Shown here: one piece after another, positions 5,400-51,000 of the stretch
How the letters are laid out: each line of letters starts with the position of its first letter
Position numbering within the stretch: position 1 is the stretch's first letter
Source: Phycisphaerae bacterium
Lineage (GTDB): Bacteria > Planctomycetota > Phycisphaerae > UBA1845 > PWPN01
Reading direction: 5' to 3'
NCBI GenBank assembly: GCA_012729395.1
Contig: JAAYDF010000157.1
Location: 1-64,000 of the forward strand
Length of the DNA stretch: 64,000 bases
Notes under the pieces: generated by a model
What the model was told of the DNA's origin: nothing
The model's database searches: none
The model's input: the letters and a program-made list of their open reading frames with translations, nothing else
Translations under genes and position numbers: made by a program

Positions 5400-5525
5400 G
5401 CGCATGCCCTGCTCACAGAGCAGTGGCACGCGAAAGCCAACGAGCCCCGAGCGCAAGCAAGCGGGAGGGAGTCGAGAACGCACACGCTCCCCGTACTGCT
5501 CACAGAGCAGTGCCACGCGAATGCG
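5400..5525. repeat. Composite of CTGCTCACAGAGCAG hairpins
   Basis: Two copies of the hairpin CTGCTC-ACA-GAGCAG followed by TGCCACGCG or a variant (5407-5432 and 5495-5520) flank a CCAACGAGCCCCGAGCGCAA segment. The same arrangement recurs at about 33700-33830. Open frames across it are compositional and are not called as genes. The whole stretch 5234-5627 is repeat material. Confidence 0.65.
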
Positions 5526-5539
5526 TCGCGATGGCATCA

Positions 5540-5603
5540 GAGCCGCGACCGTAAGGGAGCGGTTCTTCTTTGCCGAGGAACCGCTCCCGTACGGTCGCGG
5601 CTC
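5540..5603. repeat. REP-like palindrome, family A, copy 1
   Basis: A near-perfect palindrome of 64 bases runs from GAGCCGCGACCGTAAGGGAG to CTCCCGTACGGTCGCGGCTC around the loop CTTCTTTGCCGAGG. Copies 2 (8141-8204) and 3 (55595-55659) are in this window. It ends 25 bases short of the SDR stop codon, in the gap between convergent genes. Confidence 0.8.
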
Positions 5604-5627
5604 CGAAAGAGCTGCCTCGGAGTGCTC

Positions 5628-6683
5628 TTAAAACTTCCCATCCCGGGCTTCGTAGTGCGTGGGCTTACCCAGTGATCGGCCACCGAGATGGATCCAGTGG
5701 GCGGCCCAGGCGATGAGGCGTTGCGTTGAGACCCGCGGCGGCCCCATGAGCCGAACGTATCGAGAAGCATCGCTGAGCAGCGCGGTTGGGGCCTCACTGC
5801 CACAGAAGACAGGCCCCTTGCCGAACAGCCGGCCGAACTGGACGGCCACCTCGCGGATGGAAAGCACCTCCGGCCCGGTGAGGTTGAGAAGAAACGGCGG
5901 TGAGGCACAGTGTGCGAGGCTTCGCAGCACGGCCGCATTGGCGTCGCCCTGCCAGATGACGTTGACGTGCCCCATGGCCAGGTCGATCGGCTCGCCGTGG
6001 TAGACCTTGCGGCCGACGTCAACGAGCACGCCGTAGCGCAGATCGATCGCGTAGTTGAGCCGGATGATCGCCACCGGCGTCCGCCAGCGAACGCTGAAGT
6101 ACTGGAACATGCGCTCGCGACCGAGGCAGGACTGGGCATATTCGCCGAGGGGGTCGGGTGTCTGGCTCTCGGTCGGCCCGCGGCCATCGACCAGAGTGAG
6201 CGGGTAAACGTTACCCGTGGAGAGGGCCACGATCCGCGATCGCCGATACCGATCGGCTACCAGCGCGGGGAGGTATGTATTCATTGCCCAGGTGAGTTCT
6301 TCCTGACCGGTCGAGCCAAACTTCCGCCCGGCCAGAAAGATCACATTGGGAGCATCGGGCAGCCCCGCCAAGGTGCCCGGTTCGAGCAGGTCGGCGGTGA
6401 TCGTCTGGATCCCCGCATCCTCAAGCTGGCATTGCAGCTTGGACTGGCTGAATCGGGCCACACCGATCACCCGGGCGGTCGAGCCGGCTTGGTCGAGGGC
6501 TCGCCGAGCCAGCCGGGCAAGGGTCGGCCCCATTTTGCCCCCCACCCCAAGAATCAGCACATCCCCCTCCTGCCGGGCCAGCGACGCCGCCAGCTCGGGC
6601 GTTGGCGTGGTCAGCACATCCTCAAGCTGGGCCTCGTTCTCGATGTGCTCGGGCAATCCGGCAGATCCATCCGCAACGGTCAT
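5628..6683 (-). CDS. NAD(P)-binding extended-SDR-like protein with altered active site
   Basis: A 351-residue protein of the NAD-dependent epimerase/dehydratase fold. The ATG at 6683 follows GGAGG by 7 bases. A 35-residue acidic N-terminal extension precedes the Rossmann strand VLILGVGGKMGPTLARLA. The middle has the SDR features NVIFLAGRKFGSTG and ALSTGNVYPL. The active-site YxxxK reads YAQSC: the expected lysine is a cysteine (codon TGC, clear in the sequence). It may therefore bind nucleotide without the usual catalysis, or use another proton relay. The product cannot be assigned to a pathway, and its neighbours rsmE and tsaD suggest no link. Confidence 0.78.
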   Translation of the reverse strand: MTVADGSAGLPEHIENEAQLEDVLTTPTPELAASLARQEGDVLILGVGGKMGPTLARLARRALDQAGSTARVIGVARFSQSKLQCQLEDAGIQTITADLLEPGTLAGLPDAPNVIFLAGRKFGSTGQEELTWAMNTYLPALVADRYRRSRIVALSTGNVYPLTLVDGRGPTESQTPDPLGEYAQSCLGRERMFQYFSVRWRTPVAIIRLNYAIDLRYGVLVDVGRKVYHGEPIDLAMGHVNVIWQGDANAAVLRSLAHCASPPFLLNLTGPEVLSIREVAVQFGRLFGKGPVFCGSEAPTALLSDASRYVRLMGPPRVSTQRLIAWAAHWIHLGGRSLGKPTHYEARDGKF

Positions 6684-7035
6684 CCATCAGCCTCCATTCA
6701 GGCAAGCCGTCGGCCACCACACTTCGCGACATCGACCACCGATCCTTACGATACCGCAAATCCCGGCCGGCGAGTACCTTGCTCGTGCGGCGGCCACTCG
6801 CGTTGTAGAATCTCTCCGCGAACACAAAGCGGATCCGGCCGTTTCGCGGACAGGCACTCGTTTGCCCTGAAACCGTCCTGATACGGCGGAGCCAGCATGC
6901 TCTCAGAAGCCGCGTGAATCGCTCTCGCGCCGGCACAGCAGAGCCAGTCCCTGGGCGTCTTCGCGTCCCGCCCTGCTCACAGAGCAGTGCCACACGAAGA
7001 GGGGCAACAGTCCGACACGAGTCGGCACACAGAGT
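6684..7035. other. Gap between divergent SDR and tsaD genes
   Basis: This 350-base gap separates divergent starts and must hold both promoters, but no convincing -35/-10 pair was found. It contains one copy of the CTGCTCACAGAGCAG hairpin at 6971-6999, close upstream of tsaD. No gene is supported here. Confidence 0.4.
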
Positions 7036-8079
7036 ATGGAAACGCTGATGGGCAAGGGGATGATCCTAGGCATAGAAACCTCCTGCGATGAGACCTCGGC
7101 GGCGGTCGTGGTTGGCGCGAAGCGGGTACTGTCCAACGTGGTGGCGACGCAGTTCGACGTGCACGCCAAGTACGGCGGCGTCGTACCGGAGCTGGCCTCG
7201 CGCGCCCACATCGAGAATCTCGACGGCGTGATCCAGGAGGCGCTGAGCAAGGCCGGCGTCGGCTGCGACGAACTCGACGCGATCGCGGTAACCTGCCGGC
7301 CGGGGCTCATGGGCTGCCTGCTGATCGGGGTAACCGCGGCCAAGACGCTCGCCTTGGCGTGGAACAAACCTTTGGTCGGCGTCAACCACGTCCACGCCCA
7401 CGCGACCAGTGCGGCCATCGCTCAACCGCCCGATGCCCCGCCGCCCTGGCCGGCCGTCGCCCTGGTAGTCAGCGGCGGACACAGTTCGCTGCTGCTGGTG
7501 CGCAATCCGCTGGAGATCGAGACACTGGGCGTCACCATCGACGACGCGGCCGGCGAAGCCTTCGACAAGGTCGCCAGTATTCTGGAGCTCGGCTTCCCCG
7601 GCGGGCCCATCGTTGACCGCGTCGCTGCCAACGGCAATCCGCGGGCGTGCGACTTCCCACGGACCATGCTCGGCCGCGACTCGCTGGACTTCAGCTTCAG
7701 TGGGATCAAGACGGCGGTGCTCTACCGCGTGCACGGCCCCGGGAAGACGAGCGGCGGACTGGCCAAGCTCAGCCCGGCGGACGTCGCCGATGTGGCCGCC
7801 AGCTTCCAGACCGCCGTCGTCGAGGTCCTGGTGGCCAAGACGTTGATGGCCGTGCGACAGACGGGAGTCCGATCGGTCGTGGTTGGCGGCGGCGTGGCGG
7901 CCAACCGGCAGCTGCGGGAATGTCTGACGGCAGCCTGCACGGATGCGCGCGTCACCCTGCACCTCACGCCCATGTGCTACTGCACGGATAACGGGGTGAT
8001 GATCGCGGCCCTCGGCTGGCACCTGCTCAAGGCCGGCCGCGTCGACACCCTGGCCATCGAGGCCTCAGCCAGCGCGTGA
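7036..8079 (+). CDS. tsaD: tRNA N6-adenosine threonylcarbamoyltransferase TsaD
   Basis: TsaD transfers the threonylcarbamoyl group to A37 of ANN-decoding tRNAs, acting with TsaB and TsaE in the cytoplasm. The protein has up to 347 residues. It shows the ASKHA start MILGIETSCDETSAAVV, the metal-binding motif region GVNHVHAHATSA, SGGHSSLLLV, DDAAGEAFDKVA, FPGGPIVDR, FSFSGIKTAV, GGGVAANRQLR and the C-terminal CTDNGVMIAALGW. Three in-frame ATGs are possible (7036, 7048, 7060); 7048 has GGAAA upstream, and homologues usually begin near MILGIETS. tsaB and tsaE are not in the window. Confidence 0.93.
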   Translation: METLMGKGMILGIETSCDETSAAVVVGAKRVLSNVVATQFDVHAKYGGVVPELASRAHIENLDGVIQEALSKAGVGCDELDAIAVTCRPGLMGCLLIGVTAAKTLALAWNKPLVGVNHVHAHATSAAIAQPPDAPPPWPAVALVVSGGHSSLLLVRNPLEIETLGVTIDDAAGEAFDKVASILELGFPGGPIVDRVAANGNPRACDFPRTMLGRDSLDFSFSGIKTAVLYRVHGPGKTSGGLAKLSPADVADVAASFQTAVVEVLVAKTLMAVRQTGVRSVVVGGGVAANRQLRECLTAACTDARVTLHLTPMCYCTDNGVMIAALGWHLLKAGRVDTLAIEASASA

Positions 8080-39652: not shown

Positions 39653-41008
39653 ATGTGTGCGAATCGCTCTTGTGGACTTGGTATTCTGCTCGTTGCCGGT
39701 TTACTCATCCCTGTCTCCTGCGATCGACCGGAGCCCTCCCCCCCGCCGTCGCTCGATATCTCCGAGCTTGTGATCATCACCCCGCACGGTGCGATGATCC
39801 GCGAGGCCTTCGCTGACGGCTTCCGCCGCTGGCAGGAAGACAACAAACTACCCGGAGCCATCACCATCCGATGGATCCACAAGGGTACGCTGGACTGCCA
39901 GCGGCACGTCTACGATCGCTACGCTCAGTACCCGGAATCATCCCAGCGGCGAATCGGCATTGACGTGTTCTGGGGCGGTGGTATCGCGGTGCATCGGGAT
40001 GTGACGGCTCGCGGCTTCGCCTTGCCCGTCAAACTGTCGGCGAAGGCACTTGAAGGTATCCCTGCTGAGCTGAACGGTCAGCCGCTCTATGCCCCGGACG
40101 GCTCATGGCACGGCACCGCGCTGGGCGGGTTTGGGATCGTATTCAACCGGTCGGCATGCCAGGCACGGGGTATCCCGGAGCCCACCACCTGGGCTGATCT
40201 GGCCAACCCAGCCTATGCGGGCTGGGTAGCAGCCGCCGATCCGGTGCTCTCGGGAAGCACCACGCAGTGCCTCGTACTGATTATGCTAAAACACGGCTGG
40301 GAGGAAGGCTGGGGCATCGTGACCGGGTTGCTGGCCAACGCCAACGGACTGCTCCCGTCCAGTTCGCTGATCTCGCCGATCGTGTCCTCGGGCGTGGCGA
40401 TGGCCGGACTCGAACCCGAATTCGTCGCCCGGACGACCATCGCCGAGTCACCCGACCGTATGGACTACATCAACCCCCCTGCCGCCACCGCCATCACCCC
40501 GGATCCAGTGACCGTATTGGTCGGCACATCGGCGTTGGAGTCCGCCACCCAGTTCGTAGAGTTCCTGCTGTCACCGCAGGGCCAGAGCCTTTGGGCGCTG
40601 CCGTCCGACGTACCCGGCGGGCCGCCCGGACAGCCGCTCTACCGCTATCCCATCCGGCCGGAGATTTACCAGCAGTACAAAGACCAACTTGTGGTCCGCG
40701 GCAATCCCTTCACCGAGCAACGCGATTTCCGTATCGACGACCGGCTGGAGCGAGCGTACACCATCCTCCTGCCGCTCCTGGTCGACGCGGCATGCGGCGC
40801 CAACCACGTCGCCTTGCAGCAGGCGTGGCAGCGGGCACGTGCCCAGGGCGGCGATTCACCCCGATTGGCGGAACTGCTCCGGCCGCCTTTCACGCTCGAT
40901 GAAGCCCTGGAGCATGCCGAGGCCTGCGCCCACGACCCCCAACAGGCTCTGACGCTGCAGAAGCAGTGGGCCGAGCTGTTTGCCGAACGATACCACAGCG
41001 GCTCCTGA
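39653..41008 (+). CDS. ABC-type solute-binding lipoprotein, Fe(III)/family 1-like
   Basis: A lipoprotein of about 451 residues. The ATG at 39653 follows GAGG, and the signal ends in the lipobox LLIPVSC. The fold is that of iron- and 2-aminoethylphosphonate-type binding proteins: LVIITPHGAMIREAFADGFR, DVFWGGGIAVH, GTALGGFGIVFNRSACQ, TWADLANPAYAGWVAAADP, ATQFVEFLLSPQGQSLWALP. About 130 C-terminal residues extend beyond the usual domain. No ABC permease or ATPase gene is adjacent; the next gene, 20 bases on, encodes a membrane-anchored hydrolase. The ligand is unknown, and the gene is an orphan in this window. Confidence 0.82.
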   Translation: MCANRSCGLGILLVAGLLIPVSCDRPEPSPPPSLDISELVIITPHGAMIREAFADGFRRWQEDNKLPGAITIRWIHKGTLDCQRHVYDRYAQYPESSQRRIGIDVFWGGGIAVHRDVTARGFALPVKLSAKALEGIPAELNGQPLYAPDGSWHGTALGGFGIVFNRSACQARGIPEPTTWADLANPAYAGWVAAADPVLSGSTTQCLVLIMLKHGWEEGWGIVTGLLANANGLLPSSSLISPIVSSGVAMAGLEPEFVARTTIAESPDRMDYINPPAATAITPDPVTVLVGTSALESATQFVEFLLSPQGQSLWALPSDVPGGPPGQPLYRYPIRPEIYQQYKDQLVVRGNPFTEQRDFRIDDRLERAYTILLPLLVDAACGANHVALQQAWQRARAQGGDSPRLAELLRPPFTLDEALEHAEACAHDPQQALTLQKQWAELFAERYHSGS

Positions 41009-41028
41009 CAACGAAAGCGACGGTCAGC

Positions 41029-42249
41029 ATGTCACACGGATGGGGCTGGCTGCTGTTTTTGCTTTGCCCGCCGCTGCTGGCGAGCATGCTGCTATGGCGA
41101 TTCCCCGCTTATCGCCGCATCCGATATCGCTCTCTGGCGATCTACCTGGTGGTCATGAGCCTGCTGATCTGGGGAGCCCTGCGGTTCGTTGCTCACTTGG
41201 CCCAGGGACGGGTCATGCCGGTGGAAGTGGGCGTCGTGTTGTGGTTCACCATCGGCTGGCGGCTGGGGTGGACATTGTGGGCACGGACGGTCGGGCGCTG
41301 CGGTGAGCGATGGCTGCGCTGGGCGAGATGGAGACGATCCCACGGGCGAACGGTGCCCCGACGGATCCTTCTCATCCGCCCCGCTCGCGCGGCCTGCACC
41401 GCCGTGATCTTCGCCCCACTGTTCCTCGCGACGGTGTTGACGCATCGCTGCAAGATCGCGGACGGCCGGGATCCGCGGAGCATCTTCGCCAAGCCTTTTG
41501 AGCACTTGCGGATTGCCACCCCCGACGGCCACGAACTCGACGGCTGGCTGATTCCGCAAGAAAACGCCGACCGGACGCTGCTCATCTGCCACGGAGCCGG
41601 GGCCAACAAGGGCAACTTTGTCTGGTTTCTCGCGCCGTTTCTGGGGCAACGCTACAACGTGGTGTTCTTCGACTTCCGGGCTCACGGCAGCAGCACCGGT
41701 CGGCAAACCACGTACGGCATCCGAGAGCGACGGGACGTGCTGGCGGTGGTGGATTGGCTGAAGCGTGAGCGGCCCGAGCACGCCCGTCGGATCGTCGGGC
41801 TGGGCTCCTCGCAGGGGGCGATGGCTCTGGCCCTGGCCGCCGCCGAGGAGCCGCGCATCGACGCCGTGATCCTGGACAGCCCGTTTGTCTCACCTGAAGC
41901 GCTGGCTCTGCACCACGCCGGAAAGGTGCCGGTGCTCGGCCCCGCGGCCGCCCGTTTCATGCTCGGCCTCATGTCCGCCGTGACGCGGACCAACTTCTTC
42001 GCCGCCTCGGCCGAGCGGGCCGTCACGTCGCTGAGCGACCGGCCCGTGTTCGTGATTCACGGGAACGAGGACATCGGCATGCCGGCCGCGCACGCCCAAC
42101 GGCTATACGACGCCGCCTCAGGCCCACGGGAGATCTGGTTCGGGCCCGGCCCGCACAGCAACATCATCACCACCGTGCCCGACGAGTACGGCCGCCGGGT
42201 GCTGCCTTTCCTCGACGCCCACCTGGACAACCGCAATCCCGCTCCGTGA
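41029..42249 (+). CDS. Membrane-anchored alpha/beta-hydrolase
   Basis: A protein of about 406 residues. The ATG at 41029 starts just 20 bases after the solute-binding gene, so the two are likely co-transcribed. Four hydrophobic segments lie in the first 135 residues (LLFLLCPPLLASMLLW, LAIYLVVMSLLIWGALRFV, VVLWFTIGWRLGWTLW, AVIFAPLFLATVLTH). The rest is an alpha/beta-hydrolase of the serine aminopeptidase-like/BEM46 type: TLLICHGAGANKGNF, FFDFRAHGSSTG, elbow GLGSSQGAM, acid HGNEDIGMP, base GPGPHSN. The triad appears complete. It probably hydrolyses a lipid or peptide at the membrane; the substrate is unknown. Confidence 0.82.
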   Translation: MSHGWGWLLFLLCPPLLASMLLWRFPAYRRIRYRSLAIYLVVMSLLIWGALRFVAHLAQGRVMPVEVGVVLWFTIGWRLGWTLWARTVGRCGERWLRWARWRRSHGRTVPRRILLIRPARAACTAVIFAPLFLATVLTHRCKIADGRDPRSIFAKPFEHLRIATPDGHELDGWLIPQENADRTLLICHGAGANKGNFVWFLAPFLGQRYNVVFFDFRAHGSSTGRQTTYGIRERRDVLAVVDWLKRERPEHARRIVGLGSSQGAMALALAAAEEPRIDAVILDSPFVSPEALALHHAGKVPVLGPAAARFMLGLMSAVTRTNFFAASAERAVTSLSDRPVFVIHGNEDIGMPAAHAQRLYDAASGPREIWFGPGPHSNIITTVPDEYGRRVLPFLDAHLDNRNPAP

Positions 42250-42580
42250 CGACACGAAGAGGCACGTGACAGAATCGCCGGGGTGCGTTGCCATGGCCAA
42301 GGAGACCTCTTGCTGTTCGTCCCTCACCACCTCCCCGGCGCGGCCGGCACTCACCCGGTTCGGGCACCGGCCCAGTCCACCCCGCCGGGCCGTGACGCAT
42401 TTGAACCCGCCATGAATATGTGTGACAATCCCTCGTCCAGAGCACAGTCTGGGAGCAACGGCTTCGCAAGAGCCGAGCGGAGCCGCGTGCCTTGTGTTGA
42501 TCCGCATCGACCATCGCACGCGGGTATGTTGCCAGCCGGCCGGCCGGCGTATCGTCAACCTGGCCAGAGGACACGGTCCA
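42250..42580. other. Spacer upstream of the acetyltransferase gene
   Basis: About 330 bases. A frame in phase with the acetyltransferase is open from 42422, but it lacks family similarity and a ribosome site. No repeat or promoter was recognised. Confidence 0.35.
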
Positions 42581-43126
42581 GTGAACGAATCGAGACTTCA
42601 TCACCTGAGAACCGATCGCCTCGAACTCACGGCGGCAACGTATCACCACATCAACGCCGAAATCGAATCTCCAGAACTCCTGGCCTGCCTGTTGGAAGCG
42701 CAAGTGGAGCCCGGCTGGCCGCCGGGCGAGTACGACCTCGGGGCGCAAGAGTACTTTCGGGATCGTCTGCAAGAAGGAGGCGAAGCCGCCGTCGGATGGT
42801 ACACTTGGTACGCAGTCCGGCATGAAGAACGCGGTCGGCCCCCTCTGCTGATTGGGGCGGGCGGCTTCCTTGGCCCTCCCGGCGAACAGCAGAAGGTCGA
42901 GATCGGCTTCTCCATCGTGCCTTCGCAACGAAGACGGGGTTACGCGACCGAAATGACCAAGGCACTCGTCGCGTACGCCTTTGCCGACGAACACACGCGA
43001 AAGATCATTGCACACACGACACCGCAGAATGTGGCATCACACCAAGTGCTCGTCCGATGTGGCTTCCGTTATGTCTGCGCAGAGACGGCATCCGGCAACG
43101 ATCTCTTCGAAATCGTGCGAAGCTGA
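42581..43126 (+). CDS. GNAT-family N-acetyltransferase (RimJ/RimL-like)
   Basis: A protein of about 181 residues that would transfer acetyl from acetyl-CoA to an amine. The GTG at 42581 follows AGAGGAC and gives the normal N-terminus NESRLHHLRTDRLEL of this subgroup. Other features are VEIGFSIVPSQRRRGYATEM, where QRRRGYA is the acetyl-CoA loop, and the late ENxAS-like segment TPQNVASHQVLVRCGF. It resembles ribosomal-protein or antibiotic-modifying acetyltransferases, and the substrate cannot be told. It converges on the threonine aldolase gene with a 38-base gap. Confidence 0.82.
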   Translation: MNESRLHHLRTDRLELTAATYHHINAEIESPELLACLLEAQVEPGWPPGEYDLGAQEYFRDRLQEGGEAAVGWYTWYAVRHEERGRPPLLIGAGGFLGPPGEQQKVEIGFSIVPSQRRRGYATEMTKALVAYAFADEHTRKIIAHTTPQNVASHQVLVRCGFRYVCAETASGNDLFEIVRS

Positions 43127-43164
43127 ATCGCATCATCGCTTTGATCAAGGCATATCGCGATTCG

Positions 43165-44199
43165 TCAAACGGTCGCCTCACGGCTTCCCAGCGTCTTGCC
43201 CATGATAGCCAAGGTCTCGGCGATCTGATCGCGCGACACGTCCAGGTGGGTCAGCGCCCGAATCCGCGTGCCGCGTGCGAGCATCAGCACACCCGCCCTG
43301 CTCAATCGGTTGGCCAGCTCCGCCGCCGGCATGGCGGTCACCTCGAAGAAAACGATATTCGTCTGGACTGTCGCCGCGTCGATGCTCACGCCCGGCATCG
43401 CCGCGATGCCCTCGGCCAGAAGCTTGGCGTTCGCATGGTCCTCCACCAGACGCGAACGATGATGCTCCAGAGCATACAAGGCCCCCGCCGCAATCACTCC
43501 CGCCTGACGCATCCCACCCCCGAACTGCTTGCGAAACCGTCGCGCCCGCTCGATAAACGCCCGCGTACCCGCCAGAGCGGATCCTACCGGCGCCCCCAGG
43601 CCTTTCGAGAAGCACACGCTGACCGAGTCGAAATGGCTCGCGTACGCACGTTCCGGAATACCCGTCGCTGCCGCCGCGTTCCAGAGCCGCGCACCATCCA
43701 GGTGCATCCGCAAGCCAGCCTCACGAGCCGCAGCCTCCACCTCCGCCACCGTCTCCAGCGGCCAGATACTGCCTCCGCCCACATTGTGCGTATTCTCCAC
43801 ACACACCAGCTTGGTCGGTGGATAGTGCACGTTGCTCGGCCGAAGAGCCGCCCGCACGTCCGCTGCGGTGAACAGCCCCCGCTGGCCCGGTATCAACCTG
43901 CACATCACGCCCGAGAGAGCCGCGGGACCACCCGCCTCGAACAGATACACATGAGCAAAAGCCTCCATCAGAACTTCGTCGCCCGGCTCGGTATGCACCC
44001 GCAGGGCCACCTGATTGGTCATCGTCCCGGAGGGCATGTAGCAGGCCGCCTCCTTGCCCAGCAGCTCAGCCGTACGACGCTCGAGTGCCACGACCGTCGG
44101 GTCATCCCCGAGCACGTCATCGCCAACCTCGGCCGCGGCCATCGCCTGCCGCATGGCAGAAGTCGGGCGAGTCACGGTGTCACTGCGCAGATCAATCAT
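43165..44199 (-). CDS. Low-specificity L-threonine aldolase
   Basis: A PLP enzyme of 344 residues that cleaves L-threonine or L-allo-threonine to glycine and acetaldehyde. The ATG at 44199 follows AAGGAGCGGAGG and gives the family start [20 protein letters not shown]. The stacking histidine is in [13 protein letters not shown] (His83). The PLP-binding aspartate is in [12 protein letters not shown], and the Schiff-base lysine is Lys199 in [15 protein letters not shown]. The length is normal. It lies 115 bases downstream of the GTPase gene on the same strand and may share its transcript, which would tie glycine/one-carbon supply to that methyltransferase-like pair. That link is only an inference. 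Confidence 0.9.
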
Positions 44200-44314
44200 C
44201 GCCTCCGCTCCTTCAAGGGGGGGATGCAAAGACCGGTACCACCACGCGGCCGGCTCGAATAGGCAGCCCGGCGAAGATGATACCTGACCAACGACGGGAC
44301 AACTACCGCGAAGC

Positions 44315-45283
44315 TCAGGCCGGAGTCTTGGGCAAACCAAGCTGAACCACGGATGGCGGCGCGCTCCTCGTCATGGTTCGCACGCTGCCCCACCGTGCGA
44401 GCAAGCCGCCAACCTCGGCTTGTGCCGCGGGATTGCAGACCAAGACCAGTTGCCCGGTCGAACCGCCGTCCGACGCCGGGCCGGTGACGATCCCGGAGGC
44501 TGAACAATCGAGGCACATCATGCCTTCATCCGTCGGCACACGGCCCTTGGCCCGGTAGATGGCCTCGCCGGCCGACCGGATGGTCTCCACCAACGCATCT
44601 ATGTTCACACGCCCATCCATCGTCAGGCACATCACCGCGAAGAGCGGATCAGCACGTACAGCGTATTCGCCCGAAGGCCCAGTGACGTGTTCGAAACCCA
44701 GAAGATCGACATCCACACGGCAATAGGACGCCCGCACGACCGACAGGCCCGGCTTGATTGCCGCAAGTTGTCGCTCGACCTCACCAAGATCCGCCTCGCC
44801 AAACAGGTCCACCTTGTTGATGATCGCCAAGTCGCTGGCTTCAATCTGAGCGGTGATGTTGGGAAGCGTATGCAGCAGCTTGGAGAAGCTGCCGGGATCA
44901 ACCACGCTGATCACCCGACTCAACCGGTAGACTTGGTCGAGCCGGGTCTCTCGCAGCATCCGCCCGGCAACCCCTGGATCGGCGATGCCGCTTGCTTCAA
45001 CCACCAACCCCTCCAACGGCTCCGACGGCCGGTGGAATCGCTCAACAATCCCACGCAGTTGCTCGATGAATGATCCTACGAGGCACTGGCAGAAGATGCT
45101 CCCACCCGGCAACGACACGACTCGCCCGCTCTCCGCGGCCAGAAGTCGGCCGTCCACATCTACGGGAGCGAACTCGTTGACCAGATACGCCAAGCGACGA
45201 TCGCGATGGGTAGCAATGATCCGGCGAAGAAACGTCGTCTTGCCGCTGCCCAGAAAACCCGTGACCAGCACCACAGGAATCAT
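44315..45283 (-). CDS. COG0523/CobW-like GTPase
   Basis: A 322-residue G3E-family GTPase. These proteins act as metal or cofactor chaperones: CobW in cobalamin synthesis, and related forms next to corrinoid methyltransferases. Walker A is GFLGSGKTT (9-17), the guanine motif is NKVD, and [11 protein letters not shown] gives the switch region. The usual CxCC metal motif is replaced by [10 protein letters not shown], with two cysteines. The C-terminal domain also has [10 protein letters not shown]. The ATG overlaps the stop of the upstream fusion gene (ATGA), so the two proteins are probably made together. The GTPase may load or reactivate the cofactor of that partner. Confidence 0.85.
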
Positions 45284-46650
45284 GGCTTCCGCTTCGCCTC
45301 GATCCCCTCCTCGATTCTCCGCGCCAACGTCGCCACGTCCGGAATGATCGAAGGAAAGGTGACCTCGCCGTCAATGCAAATCGTCGGAATATGCCCCACG
45401 CCCAGCTTGGCCATGTGTCCCAAACCGCTTCGCGTAGTGATCTTGTGCTCGCGGATGACCACCTTGTCGCCCAGCTTCTGCGTCGCGTTGTAGACCGCGT
45501 CCACCATGTACTGGCATGGGGCACACGAGGCGGAGTCCAACGTCACCACATCGACGAATACCTTGCCCGCCTCCCCATAGTCGGGCAACTCGACGTCCTC
45601 GTACGCCTGTTCCGCACAAGCTGGCAACGCCGCCTTGGCAACCTCCCGCTGGTAATCGTCGTGCACCATGAGAGCAACGGCCTCGATGTTCCGCTCGGGA
45701 GTGTGGAACGGCAGATCGCAGCCCGGGGCCAACACGAAACCGGTCGCCCCACCCACTTCCATGCACTGCAGAGCATCCCGCTTCGCATCCATCTCACTGC
45801 CCAACAGCAACACAGTCGTCAGCTTGAGATTCCCGCCGAACGACTTGCCGTGAGTTCGAGCCAGATCTCGAAGCAGTTCAAGCGAGATGTTTTCATCCAC
45901 CGAGACGTTATCACACGCCGTACGGCACATGTGTTCGAGATTACGCGTCGCGTTGCCACATACAAACAGCGACGAGCACGCACCCCGCTCCCGGATATGC
46001 GCGAATACCGGGTCCACATACGGCCCGACGAATTCCTCAAAGTGAGCCGACGAAATCTGGCTGGTCATCGGGTCCACGACGGCAATCACGTCCGCACCAT
46101 GGTCCAGGTAGAAATCCGCTGCCCGACGCGCCACCTCGCCACAATACGATAACACCGTCTTCACCTTGTCCGGCCCGGTGAACATCTCCAGAAACAGGTT
46201 GGTGCCCATCAGGTGCAATGCCAAGGTAAACGGTCCGGTGATCAGACCATACAACGCAATCTGGTCACCCCGGCTCTTCTTCATACTCGCCAGGGCCTCG
46301 CGGATAATCGGGTAGCGTCCCCGGCCGGTGTCGAACGGCGGCAGGTCGGCCAACTCACGGTCCATCAACGGATGCGAGCTGACCGAGGGCGGCGTCTCCT
46401 CGGCCCAATGCATCTGGCAACCAAGCACCTCGGCCTCAAGCTGGAGATCAAAAACGATGGGCAAACCGTCCGGGCAATACAACTCGCAGGCCCGATCCAG
46501 CCCCCGAACGAGCAACTCGCTCGAATGCAGATACGCATCCGCCGTCACACCGATCAGCTTGGCCCCATGCACGCCAACGAACGGTACCCACGCCGGCCGG
46601 GGCGTAGGCCGGTTCCGCAACGATTCGAGGAGAAGTCGCTTCCCTTCCAT
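45280..46650 (-). CDS. UROD/MtaA-like methyltransferase fused to thioredoxin-like domain
   Basis: A 456-residue fusion. Residues 1-335 are of the uroporphyrinogen decarboxylase/cobamide-dependent methyltransferase fold (LITGPFTLALHLMGT, DVIAVVDPMTSQISS, FVCGNATRNLEHM, FVLAPGCDLPFHTP). The zinc cysteines of MtaA-type enzymes are kept (Cys231, Cys311), but the first ligand position, normally His, is Phe229. Residues about 365-456 are a thioredoxin-like domain with CAPC at 376-379 and cis-Pro GHIPT. The ATG follows GGGAG. It is translationally coupled to the GTPase gene. It is probably a corrinoid-linked methyl transfer protein; no corrinoid-binding protein gene is in the window. Confidence 0.82.
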   Translation of the reverse strand: MEGKRLLLESLRNRPTPRPAWVPFVGVHGAKLIGVTADAYLHSSELLVRGLDRACELYCPDGLPIVFDLQLEAEVLGCQMHWAEETPPSVSSHPLMDRELADLPPFDTGRGRYPIIREALASMKKSRGDQIALYGLITGPFTLALHLMGTNLFLEMFTGPDKVKTVLSYCGEVARRAADFYLDHGADVIAVVDPMTSQISSAHFEEFVGPYVDPVFAHIRERGACSSLFVCGNATRNLEHMCRTACDNVSVDENISLELLRDLARTHGKSFGGNLKLTTVLLLGSEMDAKRDALQCMEVGGATGFVLAPGCDLPFHTPERNIEAVALMVHDDYQREVAKAALPACAEQAYEDVELPDYGEAGKVFVDVVTLDSASCAPCQYMVDAVYNATQKLGDKVVIREHKITTRSGLGHMAKLGVGHIPTICIDGEVTFPSIIPDVATLARRIEEGIEAKRKP

Positions 46651-46686
46651 AACCGCTCCCTGCAGAGAACAGCGGCTGGACGTTCC

Positions 46687-47751
46687 TCAACGGCCCGCCC
46701 CACACAGCGGCTGGAGCAGCACTTGACGAACCGTTATCTTCATCGCCTCAAACTCCTTGCCAGCATGCACCTGGAAGCCGATTCGCCCGTGGTCGGTGGT
46801 GTCGTCCTTGACGTCAGCCACCTGAAAACCGTTGAGCCAGACCCGCAAACGAGGCCCTTCCGCCCGGATGTCCATCGTGTTCCACCCTTCGTGATTCACC
46901 AAATCCGGATCATCGTTGATCGCCAGGAACATCTTGCCCGGGCAGTAGATTGTCCCGGAATACGCAACCGGGTTGCGGTATTCGAGAATGTCCGCCTGAT
47001 AGGCCTGGCCGCCCGACTGATACCGAAACCAGATGCCCGTATTGGCCGGCCATGCGACGCGGTAGGTCACTTTGAGGTGGAAATCCCGATACGTATCCGT
47101 GGTCAGAAGCTCCCCGTGGGCATCATTGGGGCCCTGGGTGCCTATTAACATGCCCTTCTCCACCTTCCACACGGCGTTGCCCTCGGCCTGCCAGCCGGTC
47201 AGATCCTTACCGTTGAACAGGGGAATCCACTCCGCCGAAGCCTGCCGATCGCGCTCATGATGTGCTCCATGGCAATCGGTGCAGACGCTGTCCTTGGAAA
47301 CCTTCCGACCGTTGGGCCGAATCCGTCCTTGCCACTCGGCAATAAAGGCGTCCACCCGATCTGGATACTGATGGGGCGCTTCATGGCATTTCTGGCAGAG
47401 CGGTACGATCTCGCCACGGCCGAACAGCAAATCCGCCTTATCCACCAGTCCTTCACCGGCCGCGTGCGCCGTGGACAGGCCATGACAGTCGACACACAGC
47501 GTCCCCCCCTTGGCATGAGACGTGGTAATCATCTCCTCGGCAAGCGAAGGATGACACAGCAAGCAAGAGCTATTGTCCACGGGCCGCTGGTCAGCAGACA
47601 CGCCCGCAGGCGACAACACCGGCGCAGCCTCGGTGGGCGGCTCCGGTTTCTCCGGCGACATGGCCCCTTCGGGCTGGGCCTGCCGCACTCCGACAAACGC
47701 CATGACCACGACCACACACGCAGCAAGTGACACTAACGTTTTGGTACCCAT
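46687..47751 (-). CDS. Tetraheme cytochrome c fused to DUF1080 sugar hydrolase-like domain
   Basis: About 354 residues, exported. The ATG at 47751 starts a signal or anchor helix (TLVSLAACVVVVMAFVGV) and sits 13 bases after GAGGAG. Residues about 60-165 carry four c-type heme motifs: CLLCH (63), CVDCH (86), CQKCH (119) and CTDCH (157), plus nearby histidines as possible axial ligands. Residues about 175-354 are a DUF1080 domain (WIPLFNGKDLTGWQAEGNAV, NTGIWFRYQSGG, NHEGWNTMDIRAEGPRLRVW), the family that includes 3-keto-disaccharide hydrolases. The fusion suggests electron transfer beside sugar oxidation or cleavage. It is divergent from the large GHL10 gene. Confidence 0.86.
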   Translation of the reverse strand: MGTKTLVSLAACVVVVMAFVGVRQAQPEGAMSPEKPEPPTEAAPVLSPAGVSADQRPVDNSSCLLCHPSLAEEMITTSHAKGGTLCVDCHGLSTAHAAGEGLVDKADLLFGRGEIVPLCQKCHEAPHQYPDRVDAFIAEWQGRIRPNGRKVSKDSVCTDCHGAHHERDRQASAEWIPLFNGKDLTGWQAEGNAVWKVEKGMLIGTQGPNDAHGELLTTDTYRDFHLKVTYRVAWPANTGIWFRYQSGGQAYQADILEYRNPVAYSGTIYCPGKMFLAINDDPDLVNHEGWNTMDIRAEGPRLRVWLNGFQVADVKDDTTDHGRIGFQVHAGKEFEAMKITVRQVLLQPLCGAGR

Positions 47752-48054
47752 GATGAAGCTGTTCTCCTCGAATCTGCCGTGCCGTGCAAGAAGACCTCCT
47801 GAGTCACCCGGCAATCGTCCGCTATTCAGCCTTGGTTTGCAAGATTACCGGCCCACGCGGCCCGACTTCCCCGGTGAAGTGGCGTTATGCCCGCCTCCGT
47901 TTCCCCCCCGGCTTCAGTCACGAAAACAAGTACTTCGTCGTTGCTGTGGGGATGGGTTGCGGGTATTATATAAATCAGAGGAGGGCATGGAGCCATGTTG
48001 AATAGCGTCAGCGCTGGCTCCCTGCCTGCGGAGTCCTTTCTTAGGAGCCCAACA
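47752..48054. other. Divergent promoter region of the cytochrome-DUF1080 and GHL10 genes
   Basis: A 303-base gap between divergent starts. It holds the promoter at 47941-47969; nothing comparable was seen on the other strand. Upstream in-frame ATGs at 47986 and 47995 for the GHL10 gene lie before its signal peptide and are not favoured. Confidence 0.45.
47941..47969 (+). promoter_or_regulatory. Sigma-70-like promoter of the large GHL10 gene
   Basis: TTGCTG (47941-47946) and TATTAT (47964-47969) are separated by exactly 17 bases. The predicted start of transcription is near 47976, giving an 80-base leader to the ATG at 48055. Confidence 0.55.
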
Positions 48055-51000
48055 ATGAATCTTGCCCAGGCTTGTCTGCGCCCGAGTTACCTGGTCGCCG
48101 CGTGCGTCAGTTTGGTTTTGTTCGCGGCATCTCCGGCATGGTCGGACACGATCGTTATCGTGGACAACTCCGACGCGGGATTCACCGACTACAACAGCGC
48201 ATGGAGTGTCACCAGCATGGATGGCCAATATGGTGACGACTACCACTATAAAACGACCCGAACATCCAGCCCCTACAACCTTGTCGAATGGAGACCCAGC
48301 CTGCCAACGGCGGGGCAATACGAGGTTGCCGTCTGGTACCGCTCCACCGGCTCGGGACGGCCCAACAACGCCCAGTACACGGTCTACCACAGCGGCGGCT
48401 CTTCCGTCGTCACCGTCAATCAGCAAAGCAACGGCTCGACCTGGGTTCTACTCGGTAGTTACGACTTCGCGGCAGGCACCACCGGGTACGTGACCTTGAC
48501 CGACCAAGCTCAACGGAATAAGACCATCATCGCGGACGCCGTTCGCTTCTACAAGCAGGATCCCTTTGAGCTGACCATGGCAGTGAGCCCCCCCGGGAGC
48601 GGAACCACAACTCCCGCGGCAGGCGGCCCATATCCTGCCGATCCGAATGAAGTCGTGGACATCTCCGCCACCCCCGCGGAAGGATACGTCTTCAAACAAT
48701 GGACCGTTTCCGCCGGCTCTGCGGTGGCCAATCCCTTGCTGGCCAACACCACGGTCACCATGGACTCAACCAAAACAGTCACGGCCGTCTTCCAGGAACC
48801 GCAACCCGTCGCGCCTGAGTTTCGAGCTTTCTGGGCCGACGCCTTTCACGAAGGCTACAAGACTGCGGCCCAAACCGACGCGATGATCGCCCGAGCACTT
48901 GAAGGGCGCTACAACGCCATCATCGCTGAAGTTCTTGCTTACCAGGACAACGTGGGCGGCGGACACGGAGCATACTGGACTTCCAGCATCGTGCCCAAAG
49001 CCAGCGACACCGCGTCGGAATTCGATCCTCTGGCTTATCTCTGCCAGCAAGCGGCAGCCAACAACCTGGAAGTTCATTGCTGGCTCGTGGCTTTCCGCGT
49101 CAGCACAACCTGGCCACCCAGCGGCAACACCATCGTCGCCAACCATCCTGAATGGCTGATGGTCACCGAGGCCGACATGGGCAACGGACCGGCAACCGTG
49201 GACGGCTACTACGTGCTTGACCCCGGCTCACCCGAGGCACAGCAGTACCTCATCTCCATCATCCGCGAGATCGCCGACAACTACCCGGTCAACGGCATCC
49301 ATTGGGACTACATCCGATACACCAACAGCAGTGCGGGGTATCCCACCAGTACCACATACACGCAGTCCGGCTTGGCCCGGTTCAGGGAGATCACCGGTTA
49401 CGTCGGCACACCGGCCACCACGGACACGGACTGGCGAGACTTCCGCCGGCGAGGTATCACCGAACTCGTCCGTCGGGCACAGGTCGAGGTAGCTACGGCC
49501 AACAATCCCCGACAACCACTACGGCACAGCGCCGCTCTGATCACCTGGGGTAACGCTCCCAGCGACTTCACCTCCTCCAGCGCCTACGGCATCTACCAGG
49601 ACTGGCGATTCTGGATGGAGCAGGGCTACCTGGACACCGGCGTCCCGATGACCTACTACCGCGAGTATCAGTACCCGACGTGGTACCGCAATTGGGTCGA
49701 TTCGTCGATCGGCTGGCGCTACAATCGACAAATGGTGACCGGTCCAGGCATCTACCTCAACAGCATGGAAGACAGCATCACCCAGATGCAGTATGCCCAG
49801 AGCGCCGGAGCCGACGGCCTCAGCACCTACTCCTACGCCACAACCAATGACACGGGCAGCTACTGGGACTGGTACCCTTACGTCGCCGCCAACCTCTGGA
49901 CCGAGAGCGCCCCAGTGCCAACCATGCCCTGGCGAAACCCGACCACCGCCACCGAGGGGACGCTCTTCGGCCGAGTGACCGACGGCGCTACCGGACTGCC
50001 GGTTGACGACGCCACCGTACAGGCCGGCTCGCGCACAGTCCAAACCGACGGAAACGGATACTATGTCCTCACCCTCTTGCCCGCAACCAGCAGTGGCACC
50101 CTCTACGACGTCACCGGCAGCAAGACCGGCTTGCCAACAACCACGGTTGACGGCGTACGGATCACCGCCGGCGAAACCACACGGCAGGATATCGTGCTCG
50201 GCGACCAGCCGCAGCTCCCGCCGACCATCGCCGAAGTCTCTCCAGAGCCGGTGGAACTTCTCGCGGAGCAACCGTACATACAGCAGTTGACGCTCACCCA
50301 AGGCTCAGCGGACTCATGGTCCGTACTCCAGAGCCCGACCGGCGTATCCGTCGATTCCACCGGGCTCGTCAGCGGTTGGACACCGACTCTCGCGGATGTG
50401 GGCAATCTGTTCGACTTCACCATTCGGGCCACCAATACCGGCGGCAGCGATGATGAAAGCTGGCAGGTCCTGGTCGTTGCCCCGCCGCCCTGCACCGATA
50501 CACTCATCGCCGGTTTCGAGGACATCGCCGACGGAAGCATGGGCATGTTCCGGCATCTTGGCTTTTCCGGAACAACCTCAAGCCATCTGCTCGAATCGCC
50601 CAGCATCAGCGAGGTCACCAGCGACGCCGCCGCCACGGGCAGCAAATCGCAGAAACTCGAGTGGCAGTTTGTCGATGCAACTTCGCCGCGCTGGGCGCGC
50701 GTGAGCACCAACAACGCAACAGACGTACCCAACCCGACCGTTGCCTTCGACAAGCCGATCCGACTGTGCTTCCGGCTGGACAATGGCTCGCTGCGGGTGT
50801 GCCTGGGCCTGCGAGAAACCAACACTGACGCCGCCATCGGTGAAAACGGCGGCATCGAAGGAACCATCGAATGGCTTGGCGCAACCGCGGCCGACGGAAC
50901 CTCGCCCGTAGGCGGCAAGATCCTGAACGCCCGCCCGGGTGTCTGGCAAACCATGATCTTCGATCCGTTGACCGACCCGGTGGTAGCCTTCACCGGCGAC

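Follow-up and report, generated by a model that had tools for sequence, protein, structure and literature searches.

In this study, we analysed a 64,000-nucleotide stretch of the genome of a Phycisphaerae bacterium (contig JAAYDF010000157.1, numbered C124 here; hereafter the window) and found in it two overlapping genes that form a conserved pair linked to corrinoid genes. The first gene, U (45280..46650, 456 amino acids), encodes a methyltransferase-like protein of the UROD fold that carries a fused thioredoxin domain. The second, C (44315..45283, 322 amino acids), encodes a COG0523 (CobW-like, G3E) GTPase. Both genes and all of their features described below are located on the (-) strand. 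The gene order is conserved, the fold of U is MtaA-like, its metal residues are changed, and corrinoid genes are both linked to the pair and co-occur with it. With modest confidence, at slightly better than an even chance, we favour the reading that U is an MtaA-type methyl-corrinoid methyltransferase on the acceptor side and that C is its dedicated metallochaperone. The open reading frames and the Pfam matches bore out the first-pass annotation of the pair, namely a UROD fusion with a CAPC thioredoxin, an ATGA start/stop overlap of 4 bases (45280..45283), and a CobW-like GTPase. When compared with the near relative L025, the third codon position was the most variable one in both U (0.531 vs. 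0.246 and 0.160) and C (0.517 vs. 0.345 and 0.270), which is the pattern of translated coding sequence.

The UROD-fold domain of U covers about residues 1-345 (45616..46650), and Pfam URO-D matched residues 5-330 with 184.9 bits. The closest solved fold to the predicted model of U (pLDDT 92, pTM 0.86) was MtaA. The MtaA entries 4ay7 and 4ay8 came first in both Foldseek and VIA-align; the Foldseek TM was 0.91 by target length, and 4ay7 gave a VIA-align Z of 42.6 with a root-mean-square deviation of 1.8 over 326 residues at 24% identity. Residues 1-334 of the model aligned to MtaA, and the VIA-align rows centre on residues 1-337, that is, on the UROD part. The best HemE structure gave a Z of 36.8. 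As for the NCBIfam models, U scored 144 bits with mtaA_cmuA (cut-off 235), 130 with MtaA (cut-off 400), 117 with MtbA (cut-off 600), and 61 with hemE (cut-off 303). In a tree of 36 sequences, U formed a clade of its own with a support of 0.985, far from HemE. The MtaA row in this tree was partial and the deep branches were weak; hence, it is the profile and fold scores that link U to MtaA. Furthermore, U does not have the MRQAGR-type N-terminal signature, which we take to be a mark of HemE. The same genome gave 17 URO-D matches, and the best of them, on contig C189 (447 bits), carries MRQAGRY and is likely the true HemE. The first-pass annotation had named clustering of U with genuine HemE decarboxylases as a reason to abandon its proposal, and these results point the other way.

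The metal site of U was then compared across relatives. A named-genome scan with a 16-sequence U alignment gave at least 558 U-encoding stretches, and the best-scoring 80 of them, which are not a random draw, were analysed (hereafter the 80 loci). These belong to Planctomycetota, Verrucomicrobiota, Lentisphaerae/Kiritimatiellae, Hydrogenedentota, Armatimonadota (Armatimonadetes), WS1/Zipacnadia, and Clostridia. Most are from draft metagenome-assembled genomes with short contigs, so that the absence of a gene from a contig is weak evidence. In a phmmer alignment, Phe229, Cys231, Asp252, and Cys311 of U corresponded to positions 246 (His), 248 (Cys), 269 (Glu), and 325 (Cys) of 4ay7. With a tag offset of six, these positions would be His240, Cys242, Glu263, and Cys319 of the MtaA zinc site. 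The sequence FVCG (residues 229-232, 45955..45966) retains the Cys of the MtaA HxC zinc motif and has Phe for its His; F[VC]CG was present in 80/80 loci. Likewise, PGCD (residues 309-312, 45715..45726), which holds the second metal-ligand Cys as Cys311, was present in all 80. The metal-ligand pattern was thus Phe-Cys-Cys in every locus, instead of the His-Cys-Cys set of MtaA. The alignment column of His146 of U (46213..46215) contains Asp or Glu in MtaA and in both of the Mlp-like neighbours used for comparison, and Tyr in the HemE of the same genome. The full compared residue set was identical in 72 of the 74 aligned U rows. The HemE Tyr in this column presumably corresponds to Tyr164 in the active site of human HemE; on that basis, and as far as the alignment indicates, His146 may point into the active site and may stand in for the lost His ligand of MtaA.

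Subsequently, the conservation of the pair was examined. In 75/80 loci, U was followed by C on a common strand, with the exact 4-base overlap in 37 of the 75 and a spacing within 100 bases in 67 of them; given this common strand, overlap, and closeness, the arrangement is not due to chance. In L068, C is 2.4 kb away from U. Cultured carriers of the pair include Pelagicoccus mobilis and Pontiella sulfatireligans. A protein search of 41 relatives found C in 10 at E values up to 1e-15, and U adjoined C in 10/10 of these family or order relatives. Thirteen of the 294 genomes in a phylum sample matched U; two of them, G049 and G106, were dropped because their UROD matches were weak and partial (32% identity), and 11 were retained. 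C was within 1.5 kb of U in 9 of these 11, and none was seen in that span in L006 and L009. In a Clostridia sample, 12/12 examined matches were U proteins; seven were followed by a GSIFCxC-type COG0523 gene like C and three by a CFCC-type one, and no C was seen in the stretch examined of L138 and L143. Because two COG0523 types pair with U, a functional bond is more likely than mere inheritance. Neighbour clusters c6, c9, c11, and c15 were set aside, as by eye they probably reflect C, U, or the corrinoid protein gene read on the opposite strand.

C itself matched Pfam cobW with 120.1 bits and the NCBIfam CobW model with 78 bits (cut-off 332). The first three fold matches of its model (pLDDT 89) were the YjiA entries 1nij, 4ixn, and 4ixm (E 3.5e-17), with an overall TM of only about 0.42, so that the two domains are either placed differently relative to each other or placed with uncertainty. 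The P-loop GFLGSGKTT occupies residues 9-17 (45233..45259), and G14, K15, and T16 in it were invariant in 55 aligned C sequences. At the place where COG0523 proteins have GCxCC, C has GSIFCQC (residues 61-67, 45083..45103). The CxCC motif of COG0523 is therefore absent, and GS[I/L/V]FCxC stands in its place, with G61, S62, F64, C65, and C67 invariant in 55/55 sequences.

A three-part corrinoid system requires a corrinoid protein, enzymes on the donor and acceptor sides, and also a reactivase. Within 10 kb of U, a monomeric corrinoid protein (PF02607 plus PF02310, with the domains of representatives checked by Pfam) was encoded in 27 of the 80 loci, RACo in 20, DUF1638 in 19, and homocysteine S-methyltransferase in 7. 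At least one of the first three was present in 30/80 loci, many of which have short flanks, and, among the 40 loci whose flanks reach the full 9 kb, in 15. The order corrinoid protein, donor, U, C, DUF1638, RACo recurred in L086, L088, L092, L094, and L099. The gene in the donor place was a UROD paralogue in L086, L088, and L094 (Pfam-checked in L088) and an MtaB-like methanol methyltransferase in L099 (534.7 Pfam bits); none was identified in L092. An MtaB-like gene of the same cluster as that of L099 was also near U in L068, in a different order. L060 and L064 contained genes for an MTHFR-family protein, formate-tetrahydrofolate ligase, corrinoid protein, RACo, DUF1638, U, C, and homocysteine methyltransferase; the ligase was identified by Pfam in L064 and falls in the same cluster in L060, and the MTHFR-family protein of L064 has a pterin-binding part. 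Moreover, DUF1638 was in one open reading frame with RACo in L045, L047, and L056 (about 5474-7885), and Pfam confirmed the one in L047 as an 803-amino-acid DUF1638-RACo fusion, which supports the view that DUF1638 acts with the reactivase.

The same association was observed at the genome level. Among 50 U genomes sampled from the 80, RACo was found in 46 and DUF1638 in 40, and 49 had at least one corrinoid-system gene. The four without RACo were those of L061, L063, L077, and L081, and in three of these U lies next to a corrinoid protein gene. The phylum sample had RACo in 100 genomes and DUF1638 in 34, with RACo in 34/34 of the DUF1638 genomes. All of the 11 U genomes had both (Fisher 1e-11 for DUF1638 and 5e-6 for RACo); these values are uncorrected for kinship, as the 11 genomes fall into five families, six of them in one, and are not independent events. 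The dropped G049 and G106 both have RACo, and neither is in the DUF1638 list. These counts contradict the possibility, raised in the first-pass annotation as fatal to its proposal, that homologous pairs consistently occur without corrinoid genes. That annotation had also called for a search for the pair and a third partner, and the corrinoid protein, RACo, and DUF1638 indeed emerged as companions. Its suggestion of a corrinoid-linked methyl transfer or reactivation module is accordingly supported by the linkage, the co-occurrence, and the non-HemE identity of U.

In the window's own genome, a corrinoid protein gene was found on contig C227 (best NCBIfam match of the MtgC type, 215 of 370 bits), with DUF1638 114 bases further. 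RACo is near the end of contig C230, and a MetH-like protein is encoded on C99. Contig C124 gave no PF02607 or PF14574 match and no corrinoid-system gene; the earlier remark that the corrinoid protein lies elsewhere thus proved literally true. Some other features of this genome were also observed. Its 17 URO-D proteins represent a large UROD-fold expansion with varied metal residues, and are candidate donor methyltransferases that may feed the corrinoid protein. The HemE on C189 (L113) appears, by eye, to have a HemD-like part joined to its N-terminus within an open frame of 655 amino acids. On contig C95, a B12-binding_2 protein gene (L111:7393-8196) was seen by eye upstream of ATP synthase genes.

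The thioredoxin domain of U covers about residues 363-456 (45280..45564), with CAPC at residues 376-379 and the cis-Pro loop PTIC at 422-425. Pfam Thioredoxin_3 matched residues 373-432 with 20.5 bits, just below its cut-off of 24.8. CxPC was found in 80/80 loci, and P422 of the cis-Pro loop was invariant in the alignment of this domain. The NCBIfam selenoprotein model HUIPC_Trx (NF047660) gave a weak match of 26.8 bits against a cut-off of 105. In 245 clostridial genomes, it gave no match above the cut-off, and the 12 matches below the cut-off that were examined were all U proteins. Membership in HUIPC selenoproteins was therefore rejected: the score is under the cut-off, and U has Cys at the Sec position. 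Translated U genes carry Cys and no in-frame TGA at CxxC; a TGA in L016 considered as a selenocysteine codon is the stop codon near the end of C. Seven U proteins (L010:1495-3120, L011:1501-3144, L135-L137, L139, and L140) have about 90 extra C-terminal residues, which look by eye like a second thioredoxin-like domain, and in L011 and L136 this stretch contains CxxC (CEKC). The clostridial U of L143 (1480-2853) has lost the CxxC (STMC), and its flanks contain a corrinoid protein and DUF1638. As this locus also has no COG0523 neighbour in the stretch examined, this one case suggests that loss of the thioredoxin Cys pair may go along with loss of the GTPase.

From these results, the following scheme is proposed. 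U would work on a small methyl-corrinoid protein encoded elsewhere, on C227 in this genome, and C would load the rewired metal site in U, or check it. Docking of the methyl-corrinoid would take place on the UROD barrel, where a metal held by Cys231 and Cys311, and possibly by His146, would activate a soft thiol-type nucleophile. This nucleophile would take the methyl group, or give it in the reverse direction, and the fused thioredoxin may maintain the thiols, catalytic or acceptor, in reduced form. A corrinoid that has become oxidised to Co(II) would be rescued by RACo together with DUF1638. The donors vary among clusters (MtaB-like, UROD paralogues, or none) and U and C are constant, so that U is more likely to be on the common acceptor side than to be substrate-specific. 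In several clusters, U was the sole candidate found for the MtaA place. The proposed role of C follows from the gene order and from the presumed role of COG0523 proteins elsewhere.

Several observations weigh against this scheme. U stays under the cut-off of every named MtaA or MtbA model, and it does not have the His ligand common to S-methyltransferases of the MtaA-like superfamily, which are described as having His-Cys-Cys (Kountz and Balskus, PMC10418091, as far as its accessible text goes). Fifty of the 80 loci had no corrinoid gene in the available flank, and neither did 25 of the 40 with full flanks. Five of the 80 had no C-type neighbour by the first search; two of the five, L101 and L103, have another COG0523 gene with the canonical GGCFCC motif after U, and within the 2.3 kb examined, L046, L084, and L104 showed no COG0523 gene next to U. 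A third Cys of C (column 210) was present in 50/55 sequences and is Arg in the window's own C, a possible loss of a metal ligand in this lineage. As pterin-binding or MTHFR-family genes are also present in L060, L064, L098, and L100, U is not the only possible acceptor enzyme. Finally, the window's own pair sits between unconserved neighbours.

Four other readings were considered. U might act on the donor side, demethylating an S- or Se-methyl compound and passing the methyl group to the corrinoid protein, as proposed for type 1 MGC Mlps, with the thioredoxin reducing a disulfide or selenyl-sulfide substrate. In 12 loci, a corrinoid gene immediately precedes U at a distance of 11-263 bases, leaving no room for another methyltransferase; the weak HUIPC_Trx matches fit a substrate of this kind, and Mlp relatives are described as acting on selenide in the part of PMC10418091 available. 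However, U persists beside the MtaB-like and paralogous donors of L068, L099, L086, L088, and L094, the His-Cys-Cys set stated there to be invariant in almost all Mlps is absent, and the CxxC of translated U genes is Cys-based; we regard this reading as unlikely, if worth serious attention. Somewhat less probable, in our estimate, is that U and C are reactivation or protection factors, in which the barrel would only dock the corrinoid protein and the thioredoxin and the GTPase would aid RACo/DUF1638 in cobalt reduction or in MeaB-like cofactor loading. The joint presence of DUF1638 and RACo in all U genomes of the phylum sample, the position of C between U and DUF1638 in several clusters, and the G3E class of C, with MeaB among its weaker fold matches, are consistent with such a role. 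In contrast, U was absent from 89 of the 100 RACo genomes and 23 of the 34 DUF1638 genomes, and hence is not needed for reactivation generally; in addition, both metal-ligand Cys residues of U are kept in 80/80 loci.

The thioredoxin domain itself might be the methyl acceptor or the redox partner of the transfer step, serving in place of coenzyme M as a substitute carried on the protein. In this case, methanol or methoxy compounds would supply methyl groups, which would pass through the corrinoid protein and the rewired Cys2His site of U to a thiol, and the COG0523 GTPase would gate the site. Such a corrinoid acceptor branch would use neither tetrahydrofolate nor coenzyme M; we give this idea a small chance. 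A role in tetrapyrrole metabolism, with U as uroporphyrinogen decarboxylase or a cobalamin-synthesis enzyme and C as CobW, would agree with the UROD Pfam domain and the CobW-like GTPase. This role is exceedingly improbable in view of the hemE and CobW model scores, the separate HemE of the genome, and the isolated clade of U, and the HemE and cobalamin-synthesis identities were rejected on these grounds.

The genes around the pair in the window were also examined. Upstream of U on the same strand (46687-47814), multihaem cytochrome-type CXXCH stretches are joined to a 3-keto-disaccharide hydrolase domain (Pfam). In the 80 loci and the own-genome loci searched alongside, this gene had one weak match and the flanking threonine aldolase gene had none; both were rejected as module partners, as they are not conserved beside U. 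As regards riboswitches, no Rfam match was obtained in window positions 41000-50000, and no cobalamin riboswitch in the 15 U loci examined.

The reading of U as an acceptor-side methyltransferase served by C was compared with known systems. The layout of donor, corrinoid protein, acceptor, and reactivase is described in the available parts of PMC10418091 and PMC12478193. Like the MtaA/MtbA methylcobamide:CoM methyltransferases, U has a UROD barrel and two of the three zinc-ligand residues (Cys); unlike them, it has Phe for His, His for Asp/Glu, and a C-terminal thioredoxin, and it is bacterial. The type 1 mlp clusters of Kountz and Balskus (PMC10418091, in the text accessible) similarly bring together a corrinoid protein, a reactivase, and proteins resembling MtaA, and further UROD paralogues are likewise carried by the U clusters. 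The U clusters differ in DUF1638 and the thioredoxin fusion, whereas Mlps keep His-Cys-Cys. Contig C124 lacks the combination of at least two Mlps, a corrinoid protein, and Ram in one cluster that defines type 1, and the accessible main text of that paper does not mention COG0523, GTPase, Planctomycetes, or Verrucomicrobia. According to the available portion of Haas et al. (2009, PMC2770081), COG0523 subfamily 13 is encoded beside the corrinoid methyltransferase genes mtaA/B/C and ramM in Methanosarcina and Clostridium, and the products of these methyltransferase genes need zinc. C may resemble this subfamily in gene neighbourhood: corrinoid genes are near 30 of the 80 pairs, and on other contigs in the window's own genome; in contrast to COG0523 members, which are said there to carry CxCC, it has GSIFCxC and adjoins a UROD-thioredoxin fusion. 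The split methionine synthase of Phaeobacter (Price et al. 2018, PMC5764234, likewise seen in part) shares the monomeric corrinoid protein, a RACo-like (RamA-like) reactivase, and DUF1638, as well as the homocysteine methyltransferase found near U in 7/80 loci, but no UROD-thioredoxin or COG0523 protein is named in that part. Fitness data for Phaeobacter tie DUF1638 and the RamA-like protein to B12 reactivation in the same source, and this function is cited for Ruegeria too. A literature search, whose cover mostly left out subscription papers, found no description of the U-C pair.

Taken together, these findings suggest that the system is probably one of the known methyl-transfer systems in a rewired yet still recognisable form. 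They offer a testable role for a widespread gene pair whose function was not found described, and tie COG0523 metallochaperones, many of whose clients are unknown, to one definite candidate client, U. The exchange of His and Phe in U gives a clear prediction on metal and substrate. Some of the U-bearing genera are not known as strict anaerobes. The pair hints that Planctomycetota, Verrucomicrobiota, and their relatives, these genera included, have a branch of methyl transfer that runs through corrinoids.

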